A stretch of 33,864 bases of DNA from an uncultured Pelagibacteraceae bacterium (GTDB lineage: Bacteria; Pseudomonadota; Alphaproteobacteria; Pelagibacterales; AG-422-B15): positions 1 to 33,864 of the forward strand of contig CACFGR010000008.1 of NCBI GenBank assembly GCA_902565955.1. The letters are read 5' to 3'. Shown here piece after piece: positions 2,865 to 29,697 of the stretch. The notes below the pieces were generated by a model. It saw only the letters and a list, made by a program, of their open reading frames with translations, made no database searches and was not told where the DNA came from. Position numbers and translations under genes: made by a program. Positions within the stretch are counted from its first letter, which is position 1, and every line of letters starts with the position of its first letter.

Positions 2865-3470
2865 ATGAAATTTTTTTTTAGTATTATATTAATCTTTTAT
2901 TTATTGTTTTCAGCAAACACATTTGCCCAAAAGCTCACAGATCACAGAATTGCTGTTGTAGTTAACGATCAAATTATTACTTCTTACGAAATAATTAAGA
3001 GAATGAAAATTAGCTCAATTTTGATGGGTGTAAATATAAGTCCTGGAGAAAATAAAGAACTTTTAAGCAAAGTAGTTGAAGAATTAATTAGGGAAAAATT
3101 AAAAAATGAAAAAATAGACGAATACAACATTACTTTGGATATTGACGAATATAAGAATTACGAGAGCAATTTTTTCGAAAGAAGAAACTTCTCTAAAGAT
3201 CAATTTATAAAAATTTTAGAAAAAAATAATTTAGATTATCAAAGCTTTAAACAATATTTAGAAAATGAAATTCTGTGGCAGAAGCTAATAGGTGCTTTGT
3301 TCTATAGGCTTACTTCTGCAAGCGTTATAGAAATTGATGATATTCTATCAAAAAATCCAAGCATGTCTGTGGAAAGAGCTGAAAATAATGTTATACAAAG
3401 ACAATTGGATCTTAAAGGTAATAAACTGTTAAGAGATATGCTTAATGAAGCAACAATTGAATATCGATAA
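2865..3470 (+). CDS. surA: SurA-like periplasmic chaperone lacking the parvulin PPIase domain
   Basis: SurA is a periplasmic chaperone for unfolded outer-membrane proteins such as LptD. This copy has 201 residues, about half the usual length. A signal peptide (about 1-21, ending FAQ) is followed by the SurA N-terminal domain: RIAVVVNDQIITSYEIIKR, then VVEELIREKLKNEKIDEYNI, then FIKILEKNNLDYQSFKQYL. After residue about 168 the protein goes straight to VERAENNVIQRQLDLKGNKL and ends LRDMLNEATIEYR, which resembles the final helix of SurA (the RYLRDLRRxAxIxIR type). The whole parvulin (Rotamase) domain between them is absent. The reading frame is intact and both flanking halves align, so this looks like a clean domain deletion, not a pseudogene. 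Its 3' end overlaps rsmA by 26 bases. The SurA identity rests on the N domain and the lptD neighbour. Confidence 0.82.
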   Translation: MKFFFSIILIFYLLFSANTFAQKLTDHRIAVVVNDQIITSYEIIKRMKISSILMGVNISPGENKELLSKVVEELIREKLKNEKIDEYNITLDIDEYKNYESNFFERRNFSKDQFIKILEKNNLDYQSFKQYLENEILWQKLIGALFYRLTSASVIEIDDILSKNPSMSVERAENNVIQRQLDLKGNKLLRDMLNEATIEYR

Positions 3471-4236
3471 AATTTTAGCGAAGAAATCGTTAGGTCAAAA
3501 CTTTATTACTGATAAAAATTTCTTAAATAAAATAAGCTCGTATATTCATTCAAATGAAAATACAAATATTATTGAAATTGGTCCAGGTAAAGGTGCTCTA
3601 ACTAAATTTTTAGTTAAGAAAAAATATAAGTCTCTCATTTTAATTGAAAAGGATAAGATACTAGCCAGTAAACTAGCACAACAATTTATTCACAATAAAA
3701 AAATAAAGATAGAGAATCAGGATGCTCTTTATATAAAATACAAAGATATAAATTTATTTGGTGAAAATATCATTGTTGGAAATTTACCATTTAATATCTC
3801 AACTCAATTACTATTCAGGTGGCTAGATTCATATGAATGGCCGCCATTTTACAGCAGAATGATTTTGATGTTTCAAAAAGAGGTTGCAGATCGCATCGTT
3901 GCGAGACAAAATACTAAAAATTACGGAAGGCTATCTGTTTCTGCACAATCCAGATGTAAAATCAATAAGCTTATGACAGCTCCAGCTGAAATATTTACTC
4001 CTCAACCAAAAGTGCAAGGTGTAATATTGGATTTTAAGCCCTTGTTAAAATATAAAAATATTGACTTTTCTAAATTACAAAGAATATTAAAAATTGCATT
4101 TAGCCAAAGAAGAAAAAAAATCAAAACAAATTTAAAAGACTATTTAGACAAATTAAATGAACTCGGAATTAATACTGATTTACGACCAGAAAACTTAAGT
4201 GTATCTGATTATTGTGATCTAACTTCTATTTCTTGA
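3445..4236 (+). CDS. rsmA: RsmA (KsgA), 16S rRNA adenine dimethyltransferase
   Basis: RsmA dimethylates two adjacent adenines in the 3' terminal helix of 16S rRNA (A1518/A1519 in E. coli numbering) using S-adenosylmethionine, as a late check on 30S assembly. The 263-residue protein has the family start AKKSLGQNF (12-20), SAM-binding motif I EIGPGKGAL (44-52), and catalytic motif IV NLPF (113-116; NLPY in many relatives). The motif FTPQPKVQGVIL and a C-terminal helical domain follow. The ATG at 3445 lies inside surA, giving a 26-base overlap; an in-frame TTG at 3457 is an alternative start that would still overlap. In many alphaproteobacteria pdxA lies between surA and rsmA; here there is no room for it. 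The 3' end overlaps convergent gmk by 18 bases. Confidence 0.95.
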   Translation: MKQQLNIDKILAKKSLGQNFITDKNFLNKISSYIHSNENTNIIEIGPGKGALTKFLVKKKYKSLILIEKDKILASKLAQQFIHNKKIKIENQDALYIKYKDINLFGENIIVGNLPFNISTQLLFRWLDSYEWPPFYSRMILMFQKEVADRIVARQNTKNYGRLSVSAQSRCKINKLMTAPAEIFTPQPKVQGVILDFKPLLKYKNIDFSKLQRILKIAFSQRRKKIKTNLKDYLDKLNELGINTDLRPENLSVSDYCDLTSIS

Positions 4237-6354: not shown

Positions 6355-7074
6355 TCACATTGTCAAGCCACCATTAACATGAAGCACTTGACCTGTAATA
6401 TACGATGATTCTTCAGTCGTGAGAAAAAAAACCGCATTTGCAATTTCGTGAGTTTCACCCATTCTTCCAGTTGGAATTTTTTTTAACATCTTTTCTAATC
6501 TGGCATTATCTACAGACTCTAAAATATCGGTATTTACAAAACCTGGGGATACACAATTCGCAGTTATACCTCTTGATGCAACTTCATTTGCGATTGTACG
6601 TGTAAACCCCTCTAATGCTGCTTTTGTAGCTACATAATTTGCTTGACCAGGATTCCCAATTTTAGCAGCGGCAGATGTAATATTTACTATTCTGCCCCAC
6701 CTATTTTTCACCATTCCTTTTAATGCCAATCTTGTGAGTTTAAAGTTTGAGTTTAAATTGATATTAATTACATTATTCCACTCATCATCAGTCATTTTTA
6801 TTAATAAGTTGTCATTTGTTATTCCAGCGTTATTTATTAATATATCAATTTGATCGCAAGCTTTAGACGTAAATTCAATTAGTTTTTCGATCTCATTATT
6901 TTGAGATAAGTCACATTTAAAACATTTAATTGCCGGCTTATATTTGTTTTCTAAAGTACTTAATTTTTCTTCATTCGTACCCGAAGCAAAAACATTATAT
7001 CCTTCTTCACAATATTTATTTACTAATGCACTACCTATTCCCCCTGTAGCCCCTGTAATTAAAACGTTTTTCAT
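6355..7074 (-). CDS. fabG: FabG, 3-oxoacyl-ACP reductase
   Basis: FabG is the NADPH-dependent reductase that converts 3-oxoacyl-ACP to 3-hydroxyacyl-ACP. The 239-residue SDR protein shows the cofactor motif TGATGGIGSA (7-16), NNAG (81-84), and the full catalytic set S134, Y147 and K151 in NITSAAA and NYVATKAAL. The C terminus ITGQVLHVNGGLTM is the FabG signature. It lies five bases after fabD and 42 bases before acpP. The intact active site makes a useful contrast with the degenerate SDR at 14734-15423. Confidence 0.96.
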   Translation of the reverse strand: MKNVLITGATGGIGSALVNKYCEEGYNVFASGTNEEKLSTLENKYKPAIKCFKCDLSQNNEIEKLIEFTSKACDQIDILINNAGITNDNLLIKMTDDEWNNVININLNSNFKLTRLALKGMVKNRWGRIVNITSAAAKIGNPGQANYVATKAALEGFTRTIANEVASRGITANCVSPGFVNTDILESVDNARLEKMLKKIPTGRMGETHEIANAVFFLTTEESSYITGQVLHVNGGLTM

Positions 7075-8604: not shown

Positions 8605-9051
8605 ATGGAAATAATTTTACTAGAGTCATTAAATAAACTTGGTAAAGCTGGTGATATTGTCAATGTAAAAGACGGCTTTGCTCGAAATTTTCTCATCCCA
8701 GCAAAGAAAGCTATAATTGCAAATAAAAAGAATAAATCAGAGCTGAATACAAAAATGTCTCTGATTTCAGAAAATAACAAAAAGAAAATTTTGGAAGCAG
8801 AAGCACTTAGGAATAAATTAGAAGGCAAAACTCTGGCAATAGAAATGGAAGCCAACGATGAAGACAGTCTTTATGGTTCAATTACTCAAAAATCTATTAC
8901 TGAAACCATCAAAAAGTCACTATCAATTGAATTATCACAAGATCAAGTAATCCTATCCCAGATAAAGACTCTCGGAGTGCATCAGATAAAACTACGTTTA
9001 TATGATGATGTTGATGCTACCATAAATTTAGAAATTAATAAAATTACTTAA
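8605..9051 (+). CDS. rplI: Ribosomal protein bL9
   Basis: bL9 is a large-subunit protein at the base of the L1 stalk, with two globular domains joined by a long helix. The 148-residue product matches this: N domain MEIILLESLNKLGKAGDIV and VKDGFARNFLIPAKKA, a lysine-rich connecting helix (about 45-75), and a C domain including DSLYGSITQKSI. It starts two bases after rpsR, so the three ribosomal genes are one unit. Length is normal. Confidence 0.96.
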   Translation: MEIILLESLNKLGKAGDIVNVKDGFARNFLIPAKKAIIANKKNKSELNTKMSLISENNKKKILEAEALRNKLEGKTLAIEMEANDEDSLYGSITQKSITETIKKSLSIELSQDQVILSQIKTLGVHQIKLRLYDDVDATINLEINKIT

Positions 9052-14733: not shown

Positions 14734-15423
14734 ATGAAAGATTTAAATTGCTTAGTAACCGGAGCATCGACAGGTATTGGCAAACATATTTCTATTGAAT
14801 TATCAAAATTTGCGAAGCATATTTACATCACTGCAAGAAATTTGAAAAAATTAGAAAACGTTTATGATAAAATTATCCAAAACAATTGTAATTGCACAAT
14901 AGTACCTTTAGATCTCTGTGAAAATAGCTCAATTGAAAATTTGTCACTTGAAGTTTTTAAAAAAGATAAATCGTTAGATATATTAATTTCCTCTGCAGGT
15001 GGTATCTTTAGTCTTTCCCCTATTGATTCAATAAATCTTACAGAATTTCAAAATATTTTAGATTTAAATTATTTAGCAAACTTTAGACTTATGAAAAATT
15101 TTCATCCTCTGTTAAAAAATTCAAAAAATTCTCACTTTGCAACAATATCATCTGTTAATAGCAGTAAAAAAAGCCACTATTGGGGTGTATATCAACCAGT
15201 AATGACTGCTTTAAATGAATTAGTTCGCATGTATGCAAATGAAAATATTAATACATCAATTAAAGCAAATGTATTTTGCCCGAGTGCAGTTGATACAAGA
15301 GTAAGAGAAAACATTATGCCTGGTGAAAATAAACAAGAAATAAAATCAGCAAAAATAGTTGCTAAAGAAATCGTACAAGTAATTTTAAATACAAAAAAAA
15401 ACGGTGAAATAATTGAACTCTAG
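14734..15423 (+). CDS. Short-chain dehydrogenase-like protein without catalytic lysine
   Basis: A 229-residue protein of the SDR (Rossmann-fold oxidoreductase) family. The cofactor motif TGASTGIGKH (about 8-17) is intact, and SSAGG stands where NNAG is usual. The serine region ISSVNSS is present, but the Tyr-x-x-x-Lys pair reads YQPVM: the tyrosine remains and the lysine is methionine. The DNA (TAT CAA CCA GTA ATG) shows this directly. The chain after it (TALNELVRMYANEN, then VFCPSAVDTRVRE) follows the normal SDR pattern, so the frame is sound. It may bind a nucleotide without ordinary catalysis, or use an altered mechanism. Its position after cvpA matches the SDR found after cvpA-purF elsewhere. 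The 3' end overlaps der by four bases, tail to tail. Confidence 0.8.
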   Translation: MKDLNCLVTGASTGIGKHISIELSKFAKHIYITARNLKKLENVYDKIIQNNCNCTIVPLDLCENSSIENLSLEVFKKDKSLDILISSAGGIFSLSPIDSINLTEFQNILDLNYLANFRLMKNFHPLLKNSKNSHFATISSVNSSKKSHYWGVYQPVMTALNELVRMYANENINTSIKANVFCPSAVDTRVRENIMPGENKQEIKSAKIVAKEIVQVILNTKKNGEIIEL

Positions 15424-16241
15424 TTTGTATATGGGTTTTTGGACCTTATAAATTCATATTTAATAGGAATTCCATCAAGTTTAAAATATTTGCGAAACTC
15501 ATTATCAAAATATCTTTGAAATATCGAGGGTATTTTATTTTTTGTATTAATAAATACCTTAAAGTTTGGCAATTTATTTTTTAACTGAACAATATATTTA
15601 GGCTTAACTGATATTTTACCTATTTTTGGGTAAGACGACTTTTTATCAAGATCCTTTAAAAATTTATTTAATTTTGTTTTTTGTATTTGAACAGATAATA
15701 AATTATCTTTCTTAATAATATTATTTAATACATTCGATATTTTTCTATTATATTTTGCAGATATGAAGTCTATATTTATCATTTTATACTTACTATAACT
15801 ATTTGTTAAAAATTTTTTTATATTTCTTTTAAATTCCTTTTTATTTTCAATAGTATCAAACTTATTAAATATAAAAAAAAGCATCTTATTTCTATTTATT
15901 GATAAATCTGCTAATCTAAAGTCTTGTTTTGTTAAATTCTCTTTTGAATCTATCAAAAGAATAATCACGTCTACTTTGTCCATTAGTTTTAATACTTCGG
16001 CGTTCCTGGATTTTTCATTTTCTTCTATCACCTTATTGCGTCGTCGAAGTCCTGGTGTATCTACTATTGTGAAATTATGTTCTTTATATTTAAATTTCTC
16101 TTCGTAAAGTATTTTAGTAAGTCCGTATTCATCTCCTACAGGTGAAATATTTTTTCCTAATAATAAATTAAATAATGTTGATTTTCCTGAATTTGGTTTC
16201 CCAATGATACTGAGATAAATGTTATTCAATCTTAAAGACAT
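15420..16241 (-). CDS. der: Der-type ribosome assembly GTPase with a single G domain
   Basis: Der (EngA) assists 50S subunit assembly and normally has two GTPase domains followed by a KH-like domain, about 430-490 residues. This protein has 273 residues and one G domain. The visible motifs are G1 GKPNSGKS (14-21), a G2 threonine at 42, G3 DTPG (61-64), G4 NKFD (126-129) and G5 SAK (161-163). DTPGLRRRNKVIEENEKSRN and KQDFRLADL match the second G domain of normal Der (DTAGLRRK..., KQDLRIA), so the first domain is the one missing. The KH-like part follows (about 185-267: TKLNKFLKDL, YIVQLKNKLPNFKVFINT) and ends RSKNPYTN, like the KGKNPY end of Der. bamB overlaps the start by 20 bases, leaving no space for a separate first domain. 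Confidence 0.85.
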   Translation of the reverse strand: MSLRLNNIYLSIIGKPNSGKSTLFNLLLGKNISPVGDEYGLTKILYEEKFKYKEHNFTIVDTPGLRRRNKVIEENEKSRNAEVLKLMDKVDVIILLIDSKENLTKQDFRLADLSINRNKMLFFIFNKFDTIENKKEFKRNIKKFLTNSYSKYKMINIDFISAKYNRKISNVLNNIIKKDNLLSVQIQKTKLNKFLKDLDKKSSYPKIGKISVKPKYIVQLKNKLPNFKVFINTKNKIPSIFQRYFDNEFRKYFKLDGIPIKYEFIRSKNPYTN

Positions 16242-17520
16242 TGGAGTCCTCGTCAGCCAAATAAATGAAGTTATTTAAAATTAATGGTGGAACCATAACT
16301 CCTTTTACTCCAATTGTTTCTGATGTAAACAACTCTCCAGATATAGGTGAGACCACCTTAATCTCTCCAAAATATGAAATATTGTATAGTAAATTATTAA
16401 TTAAATATGGGCCTAACCATAAATTCATATTCTGAACTTTTTGACCTTTTTTATATTTATTTAAATCAGTAATCCAATAAACCTCTCCCTTATCAATACT
16501 TAAGCAAATTAATTTTCCTTCATCATTGATAACGTAAATTTGATCTCCAGAAATGATTGGAGTTCTGTAGCCAGACAAGTCTATAGCCCATAGTCGTTTT
16601 CCATTGAGTACATTATTGGAAATAAGTTTTCCATTTGAACTGAGTGAATAAATTATATTTTTTGAAATAACTGGGCTCGCAGAAATATCTTTTATATCAA
16701 AATTACTAACCATCGATATTTTTGATAAATTTTCAGACCATAACGGTCTGCCGGTATCATAAATAAAAGAAACTAACTCTCCATTACTAAATGGCACTAT
16801 CACAGTATTTTCAAAAGCAACTGGAGATGCTGTATATAAATTTTTCTTTACTTCTGCAATAGTTTGAAATGTCCACTCAATATCACCAGAATTAAAATCA
16901 AGTGAAAAAACCCTATTATCAGACGAAATAAAGTAAATATAACCTCTATATATAAGTGGAGGAGATAAAATTGGAAAATCAATATTTGTTTCCCATACTT
17001 CGTCGCCATTATCAGCGTTTATTAATTTAATTTGCCCGTATGCATCGACAAAGACAATTTTGCTATCAAAGTATGCTAGACCACCCCTTACAAGTTCGTA
17101 TTTTTTTATTCCTTCTTTTTTGATATCAACTTTAAATTTTGTATCATTAGATATTGTATCAACACATATTAAATAACCATTATTTAAAACATGACACAGT
17201 GTGTTATCAAAATAAATAGGTTGGACAATATTAGTTGCCCCCTTTTTGCCATTTATTATTTTGGACTTCTTTTCAAATGAAGAGCTTGTCGCTAAGTTAT
17301 TTAAGTTATTTGCTGGATTTTGAAAATGTTGCGTCCAAAAAATTAATTCTTTTAGTGGATCAATAAATATATTTCCCTTATCAAGTGTAAGCGTCTCTGA
17401 GATTTTAGAATCATAGGATAAAACTGAGTATTCATTTTCATTTAACTCAATTTTATCGTTTTTTGAGCATCCAAAGATAAAAATAAATGTAAAAAGTAGA
17501 ATATTGGCTTTCTTGCACAT
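16222..17520 (-). CDS. bamB: BamB-like outer-membrane assembly lipoprotein
   Basis: BamB is the beta-propeller lipoprotein of the BAM complex, which inserts beta-barrel proteins into the outer membrane. The 432-residue protein has a lipoprotein signal with lipobox IFGC (modified cysteine C18). It is followed by repeated PQQ-type blades: GYLICVDTISNDTKFKVD, LINADNGDEVWETNI, RVFSLDFNSGDIEWTF, LISNNVLNGKRLWAIDLSG, and LICLSIDKGEVYWITDL. Length fits alphaproteobacterial BamB. It lies one base after the YfgM-like gene and overlaps der by 20 bases, the order seen in many proteobacteria. A general PQQ-repeat lipoprotein is the alternative, but the neighbours favour BamB. Confidence 0.88.
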   Translation of the reverse strand: MCKKANILLFTFIFIFGCSKNDKIELNENEYSVLSYDSKISETLTLDKGNIFIDPLKELIFWTQHFQNPANNLNNLATSSSFEKKSKIINGKKGATNIVQPIYFDNTLCHVLNNGYLICVDTISNDTKFKVDIKKEGIKKYELVRGGLAYFDSKIVFVDAYGQIKLINADNGDEVWETNIDFPILSPPLIYRGYIYFISSDNRVFSLDFNSGDIEWTFQTIAEVKKNLYTASPVAFENTVIVPFSNGELVSFIYDTGRPLWSENLSKISMVSNFDIKDISASPVISKNIIYSLSSNGKLISNNVLNGKRLWAIDLSGYRTPIISGDQIYVINDEGKLICLSIDKGEVYWITDLNKYKKGQKVQNMNLWLGPYLINNLLYNISYFGEIKVVSPISGELFTSETIGVKGVMVPPLILNNFIYLADEDSNVFKIE

Positions 17521-17521
17521 T

Positions 17522-18154
17522 TTATTTTATAGCGCTTATAAATTTTTTAGCTCTAATTGATATTTCATTTGGCGTCTCTATATCATTAATTAACGCTGAG
17601 AATCTCTCTCTCGCCAAATTTAAATCACCTGAAAAATATGCATTTAAAGCAAATAATTCTCCGAATAAATACTTAAATTGACTTTCGTTAATTTTAATAT
17701 TTTTAGCGTACTCATTTATCTCATTAGAACTAATTTTACTTATTTGTGATAGTAAAAATAGATATAAAGAAAATTCTTTTACAAGAGGGTCAATTTCTTT
17801 ATCTCTTATCAAGTTTAATAACTCTGATCTCCCTTCATCTAAATTTCCTTTTTCAGCCAATAAGATAGCAATTTTAACTCTAGATAAATTATTAATAAAT
17901 GTATCTCCATAGTTTTCGATATCATTTAGATTGTTTATAGATTCTTTGAAGTCATTTTCATTAATGGCTTTTATGTACTTTTCAACAACGGCTTCGCTGT
18001 TAGATTTAGCTATAGATTTACTTATCTGCAGTCCAACTACTATCGTAACTAGAACTATAATTAAAAATATTACATATAAACCATATTTTTTCCATAAGTT
18101 AAGTATTCTCTCTTTTCTCAAGTCTTCATCTACTTGTCTTAAAATATTACTCAT
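17522..18154 (-). CDS. YfgM-like membrane-anchored TPR protein
   Basis: A 210-residue protein with a short cytoplasmic N terminus (MSNILRQVDEDLRKERI), one membrane helix (about 25-45), and a helical periplasmic region with TPR character (about 50-210: LLAEKGNLDEGRSELLNLI, ELFALNAYFSGDLNLARERF). This is the layout of YfgM, which in E. coli contacts the SecYEG translocon and periplasmic chaperones. The RQVDEDLRKERI start is typical of the alphaproteobacterial family. It starts within the panB stop (four-base ATGA overlap) and is followed by bamB. A link with envelope protein export is inferred from family and neighbours. Confidence 0.8.
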   Translation of the reverse strand: MSNILRQVDEDLRKERILNLWKKYGLYVIFLIIVLVTIVVGLQISKSIAKSNSEAVVEKYIKAINENDFKESINNLNDIENYGDTFINNLSRVKIAILLAEKGNLDEGRSELLNLIRDKEIDPLVKEFSLYLFLLSQISKISSNEINEYAKNIKINESQFKYLFGELFALNAYFSGDLNLARERFSALINDIETPNEISIRAKKFISAIK

Positions 18155-29043: not shown

Positions 29044-29697
29044 TCAATCAATAGGTGACTTTTTTTCAAGACAAACCAGGTATATCTCACTCGATTCTTT
29101 GCGGCTTGACTTAGGCTTGAAGGAAGTGACTTTTTTAAAATGTTTTTTACAAGTTAGTATAACTTCTGAAATATCACCTGATCTAAAATATTTTGAAACC
29201 ATGTTTCCACCTGGTTTCAATTCTTTTAGGGCGAAATCAACAACATTCTCTAATAATTCAAGCGAAAGCAAAAAATCTGATGATCTATTACCAGATAAAT
29301 TTGGTGATATATCAGACACTATAAGATCGAATTTGTCATATTTAGCTAATATTTTTGAGCATTCATCAGACAAGAAATCGACTTTATATACATCCACATT
29401 CCTGATGGGGTTCATATCCAATAGGTCTAAAGCCACTATCTTTTTAAGATTTTTACCATGAAATTTTAGTACCTCACTCCAACTGCCAGGAGCAGATCCA
29501 ATGTCTAAAGCTTTTTCTAAGCCATCAAGAAGTCTATATTTTTCAATAATTTCAATTAATTTATAGGCCGCTCGAGATCTAAAATTATCTTTAGAGGACT
29601 TGATTACATACTCATCTTCTAAATGCCTTTTGAGCCATTTTTTACTCTTATCTGAAAAGGACTTATTCTTGATTTTCATAAAATTGTTATTTTTCAA
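29044..29697 (-). CDS. rlmE: RlmE (RrmJ/FtsJ), 23S rRNA 2'-O-ribose methyltransferase
   Basis: RlmE methylates a 2'-hydroxyl of a uridine in the 23S A loop (U2552 in E. coli) on assembled 50S subunits. The 217-residue protein shows WLKRHLEDEYV, RSRAAYKLIEI, the SAM motif ALDIGSAPGSWSEVL, and the K-D-K-E tetrad: K46, D129 (SDISPNLSGN), K169 (VSKYFRSG) and E204 (SRKESSEIYLV). An alternative start is the ATG at 29679 (MKIKNKSF). A minus-strand -10-like TATAAA at 29701-29706 with TTATCA at 29724-29729 would favour that later start. It diverges from the efflux operon across 120 bases. Confidence 0.93.
   Translation of the reverse strand: MKNNNFMKIKNKSFSDKSKKWLKRHLEDEYVIKSSKDNFRSRAAYKLIEIIEKYRLLDGLEKALDIGSAPGSWSEVLKFHGKNLKKIVALDLLDMNPIRNVDVYKVDFLSDECSKILAKYDKFDLIVSDISPNLSGNRSSDFLLSLELLENVVDFALKELKPGGNMVSKYFRSGDISEVILTCKKHFKKVTSFKPKSSRKESSEIYLVCLEKKSPID

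Follow-up and report, generated by a model that had tools for sequence, protein, structure and literature searches.

A conserved single-G-domain Der GTPase in a SAR11-like order of bacteria

Introduction

The GTPase Der (EngA/YphC) helps to build the large ribosomal subunit. It is defined in textbooks by two G domains and almost always carries both. Der and a second GTPase, Era, are regarded as nearly universal. The locus described here, in a window of 33,864 nucleotides (the whole stretch of DNA that we analysed), holds a der-like gene for a protein of only 273 residues. Does it encode a genuine Der, which half of the protein has been kept, and how far does the short form extend among related bacteria?

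Results

A Der with one G domain and one KH domain

The gene begins with ATG, and its product contains an MMR_HSR1 domain (Pfam, residues 11–127) followed by the EngA-specific KH_dom-like domain PF14714 (Pfam, residues 186–264; 59.2 bits, cut-off 27.3). The NCBIfam Der model TIGR03594 aligns through positions 175–431 of 432 only, which correspond to the second G domain (GD2) and the KH domain without the first G domain (GD1), and the score of 207.2 bits lies below the curated family cut-off of 306.7. Against Der chains in the PDB, phmmer aligns residues 8–265 with GD2-KH (2hjg 176–432, E 1.9e-50). A first-pass annotation had proposed a Der cut down to one G domain and a KH domain, with all five G motifs intact, and both points hold: GKPNSGKS, T42, DTPG, NKFD and SA are all found (Table 1). 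In this superfamily, K+ is liganded by the G1 asparagine and by an asparagine five residues past the G1 lysine (PMC3466195); the corresponding residues here, N17 and N25, do not vary among the 35 aligned homologues.

The order yfgM-bamB-der is common to the window and E. coli K-12. The annotation had also pointed out that bamB overlaps the start of der; because of this overlap, which measures 20 bp, no first G domain can be hidden upstream. The window additionally encodes full-length bL9 (8605–9051, plus strand), an RlmE-like 23S methyltransferase that scores below its curated cut-off (29044–29697, minus strand) and RsmA (3445–4236, plus strand). Both L9 and RlmE have genetic links to Der in E. 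coli.

Table 1 Position of der, its motifs and its neighbours in the window
Feature	Coordinates	Strand	Evidence or remark
Single-G-domain Der (GD2-KH), 273 aa	15420..16241	minus	ORF, TIGR03594 positions 175–431, predicted fold
G1 / P-loop GKPNSGKS	16179..16202	minus	Alignment of 35 homologues
G2 / switch I, GLT (canonical GD2: GTT), T42 invariant	16116..16124	minus	Alignment
G3 DTPG	16050..16061	minus	Alignment
G4 NKFD	15855..15866	minus	Alignment
G5 SAK	15753..15761	minus	Alignment
KH-like domain of Der (PF14714)	15450..15686	minus	Pfam
bamB, upstream neighbour of der	16222..17520	minus	Overlaps der start by 20 bp (16222–16241)
yfgM-like TPR gene	17522..18154	minus	Same yfgM-bamB-der order as E. 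coli

The short form recurs in two families of the order

The metagenome-assembled genome (MAG) that holds the window has one der only. It is 61.7% complete, so its relatives must decide whether a second copy exists. Genus and family labels below follow the database's own hierarchy. The short Der is matched in 35 of 42 congeners (two of them by fragments only), and the congeners lacking a match are consistent with a genome completeness of 53–100%. None of the 53 genomes of its own family (f1) exceeds the full-length Der cut-off, and the short form occurs in four genera there. The same one-domain form, in frames of 269–282 aa, is present in genera g5, g7 and g8 of a second family, f2. In the single-contig genomes G053, G056, G057 and G157, the sole Der is the short form. 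A second full-length der elsewhere in the genome, named in the first-pass annotation as an observation that would overturn its reading, is thus found neither in the MAG itself nor in complete relatives.

Outside the order, the two-G form prevails. A class sample of 387 genomes was made up of the MAG itself and genomes that are at least 90% complete; of these, 369 score above the full-length cut-off, as do 393 of 397 genomes in a phylum sample. Two of the four phylum exceptions belong to the same order, and the other two give no match to Der at E 1e-40. In both samples, a conserved GD2-only Der is confined to this order. The class-wide survey sets the polarity: the ancestor had two G domains.

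The remaining class exceptions are G491, family f27 and several genomes without a match at E 1e-40. Family f27 (G206, G395, G463) was considered as a second short-Der lineage on account of its low score, but its Der proved to be full-length and very divergent, in frames of 417–425 aa. Its GD1 keeps the P-loop and has lost NKxD (23–24 bits with the GD1 HMM), its GD2 is intact, and GD1 may be decaying there independently. In G491 (family f130), der lies in two overlapping frames, GD1 and GD2-KH, in a single MAG where a frameshift error is conceivable. G330, a 1.2 Mb genome of family f124 with a rated completeness of 100%, has no Der match at E 1e-40, its best match being an Era-sized frame of 304 aa; G655 likewise has no match at this threshold. 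These two are possibly further Der losses.

Der and Era are both missing from related genera

In three other genera of f2 (g6, g9 and g10), which belong to the core of the order, neither PF14714 nor the short Der is matched among more than 100 genomes sampled, which include the single-contig examples G054, G055 and G065. In single-contig g6 genomes, TIGR03594 finds MnmE-, Obg-, IF2-, LepA/BipA- and YchF-sized frames only. Gene order agrees in the one genome where it was followed, G071 of g9 (C3:13000-25000, around 6618–6621): the order guaA-panB-yfgM-bamB is preserved, with purF directly facing bamB. The interval between bamB and purF is the place of der in g5, g7 and g8, with which G071 otherwise shares its synteny, and in G071 der is cleanly missing. 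The loss is read from synteny in this one genome and from a lack of HMM matches in many that are nearly complete. The first-pass annotation had recognised the reduction itself correctly; its extent across the order and the complete loss of Der in related genera went beyond what it described.

Era follows the same boundary. It scores above the cut-off in 21 of 148 genomes, every one of them in f1 or in g5, g7 and g8, and in none of the g6, g9 and g10 genomes of this survey. With hmmscan, ObgE is confirmed in two Der-less genomes of g9, as is MnmE in a single genome of g6. A 23S rRNA tree places g6 and g9 together and apart from g5 (100/100) and does not resolve f1 from f2; the grouping is consistent with a single loss. 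Three published SAR11 rRNA probes match exactly in two g6 genomes, and for this reason the order that contains g6 is very probably Pelagibacterales/SAR11.

No separate first G domain is found

A short Der might still work as a two-part protein if GD1 were supplied in trans, either by a separate GD1 reading frame or with Era, EngB or ObgE as a substitute. Era is present in exactly the short-Der genera of the order, which would allow a functional link. However, Era acts on the 30S subunit, and shared loss explains the co-distribution equally well. TIGR03594 searches found no free-standing GD1 gene at E values up to 1e-5 in 18 genomes or at 1e-10 in 53 genomes, complete ones included; the GD1-like matches fall only in frames of the size of other GTPases (Era, MnmE, Obg, IF2, LepA/BipA or YchF). 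We regard a first domain acting in trans as unlikely.

The gene is under purifying selection

Absence of Der from related genera of the same order suggests another reading, in which the truncated protein is a decaying remnant with little or no function and the loss of GD1 resembles the first step towards losing the gene. The sequences argue against this. The G motifs are intact, the gene is conserved across seven genera, and the median dN/dS over 102 close pairs is 0.072 (Nei-Gojobori, approximate since the codons are AT-rich). A pseudogene would not keep the P-loop, NKxD and the KH domain at such divergence. The short der gene is conserved, and the purifying selection that acts on it largely refutes the remnant reading and leaves it very improbable.

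The retained half is GD2-KH

We then compared the G domains of 16 short proteins with HMMs for GD1 and GD2, for which other Alphaproteobacteria and E. coli supplied the sequences, and with HMMs for Era and MnmE, built from the same class with members of the order included. GD2 is the top model for all 16, with a margin of 13.5–64.5 bits over GD1. In a tree of G domains, from which the most divergent rows were left out, the short domains cluster together (99/96) and are placed weakly beside GD2 (67/87), and an AU test does not reject a grouping with GD1 (p 0.33). Because the tree by itself does not reject GD1, we base the assignment on how the HMMs score and on the KH domain that follows the G domain.

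The superfamily's G domains are alike and the tree is weak on its own, which leaves some room for an Era- or MnmE-type GTPase that acquired a KH domain and merely resembles Der. In all 16 cases, though, GD2 is ahead of both Era and MnmE by at least 34 bits (34–57 bits over Era). The KH domain is PF14714, described for EngA; the yfgM-bamB-der order is that of E. coli; Era and MnmE are separate genes, Era being a frame of 282 aa in the MAG itself (G000:C12); and neither Pfam nor NCBIfam detects an MnmE-type N-terminal tetrahydrofolate-binding domain in the window protein. Such an origin is therefore barely credible. Of the earlier claims, the one that the remaining G domain is of the second-domain type is borne out by the scores, and the Era or TrmE membership that would have contradicted it does not emerge. 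The tree agrees weakly in its placement beside GD2 and falls short in not rejecting GD1.

Taken together, HMM scores, KH domain and gene order give a firm sequence-based assignment to GD2-KH. By its sequence, the window protein is an orthologue of this half; it is not a tandem-G Der by strict membership, because the defining pair of G domains is not there.

That a first G domain was lost from the record through a frameshift or a contig break, as the 61.7% completeness of the MAG might suggest, is refuted: the gene is internal to its contig, bamB overlaps its start, an in-frame stop lies 10–29 codons upstream of the P-loop in all 42 distinct copies, and dozens of independent genomes, single-contig ones included, carry this same form, in agreement with the earlier view of a clean reduction and not an annotation error.

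Predicted structure and probable ribosome site

The predicted model of the window protein (pLDDT 89.9, pTM 0.87) has the fold of solved Der structures. The closest of these, 9bsl_W and the trypanosome mt-EngA, are homologues of Der in complex with assembly intermediates of the large subunit. Ribosome-bound YphC (9bsl_W) aligns over 258 residues with a Z score of 27.3 and an rmsd of 2.3 Å, whereas free Der crystals score lower (Z 21–23). E. coli Der on the 50S subunit (3j8g, Z 20.8) runs against this trend. The comparison uses a single predicted model and turns on how the domains are oriented; it hints that GD2-KH by itself may sit in the ribosome-bound arrangement.

In 50S-bound Der, GD1 lies near the L1 stalk, GD2 occupies P-site space and the KH domain points toward the peptidyl transferase centre (PTC), according to PMC13278734, citing Zhang 2014. 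Isolated B. subtilis GD2-KH has normal nucleotide affinity and hydrolyses GTP about 150-fold more slowly than GD1, with stimulation by K+ (PMC3466195). YphC acts through binding, and its release needs hydrolysis (PMC12560758). The published view that both G domains matter in E. coli, expressed in the title of a 2006 paper by Bharat et al. that PMC4399890 cites, speaks against a Der that works with one.

A shortened L1 stalk, as in the Candidate Phyla Radiation (CPR; PMC12641178), was considered as a reason for a dispensable GD1 and set aside. The H76–78 region of 23S rRNA measures 121–122 nt whether a lineage has a short Der, no Der or a two-G Der. Since the stalk is of normal length, the loss of GD1 did not follow the loss of its docking site, and the rRNA shows no evident change that would account for a dispensable GD1.

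Discussion

Domain content, conservation and distribution of the short Der are shown by the sequences. We consider it quite probable that the window encodes the vertically inherited Der of its order, retained as GD2-KH only and acting at the P site and PTC of the 50S subunit. GD1 would have been lost early in the order. We infer that GD2-KH, loaded with GTP, binds a late 50S precursor by itself in the P-site/PTC region and there would let the rRNA of the functional core mature, and that slow K+-stimulated hydrolysis in GD2 may then release the short Der. Without GD1, the protein would have no anchorage near the L1 stalk, would lack the faster of the two GTPases and could not switch the KH position in any way that depends on GD1. 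Later, in other genera of the order, the main SAR11 genus among them, the remaining half would have been lost too, along with Era. On balance, we lean toward a stepwise dismantling from two-G Der through GD2-KH to nothing, in which GD2-KH would be the minimal working Der, GD1 an optional regulatory module, and core SAR11 would build both ribosomal subunits without Der and Era.

Compared with canonical Der/EngA/YphC (TIGR03594), the window protein shares the sequence and fold of GD2 and KH, the K+ asparagines and the position after bamB. It differs in lacking the first G domain, with 207 bits against 306.7, and an inter-domain GTP switch is impossible in it. The B. subtilis EngA GD2-KH construct (PMC3466195) has the same domain content (32.1 kDa), binds GDP and GMPPNP and shows a slow, K+-stimulated GTPase; it is an engineered fragment, whereas the window Der is natural, conserved and the sole copy. 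Era also pairs one G domain with one KH domain, but the KH domain here is of the EngA type PF14714, Era HMM scores are lower, and era is a gene of its own.

Classes of CPR/Patescibacteria without Der are already known (PMC12641178). That study shows that Der is dispensable in reduced genomes, with ObgE kept in several classes; Der is scored there as present or absent, and we found no one-domain form reported. Der loss in the CPR goes with changes in uL1 and H78, whereas the SAR11-like order has an L1 stalk of normal length. The literature that we searched describes neither a conserved one-domain Der nor a joint loss of Der and Era in SAR11, an absence that is no proof of novelty.

With GD2-KH kept, GD1 dropped and Der later lost altogether, nature has already tested which half is dispensable. 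A natural GD2-KH under purifying selection suggests that living cells can do without GD1, which supplies the fast GTPase and the anchor at the L1 stalk, and the part of Der retained is the P-site/PTC half. For structural studies the short Der is a minimal protein at hand, and it lends itself to a clear genetic test; the absence of both Der and Era in related genera provides a matching comparison for the short-Der lineages. It also raises the question of how ribosomes are assembled without these checkpoints in SAR11-like bacteria, which are abundant in the ocean.
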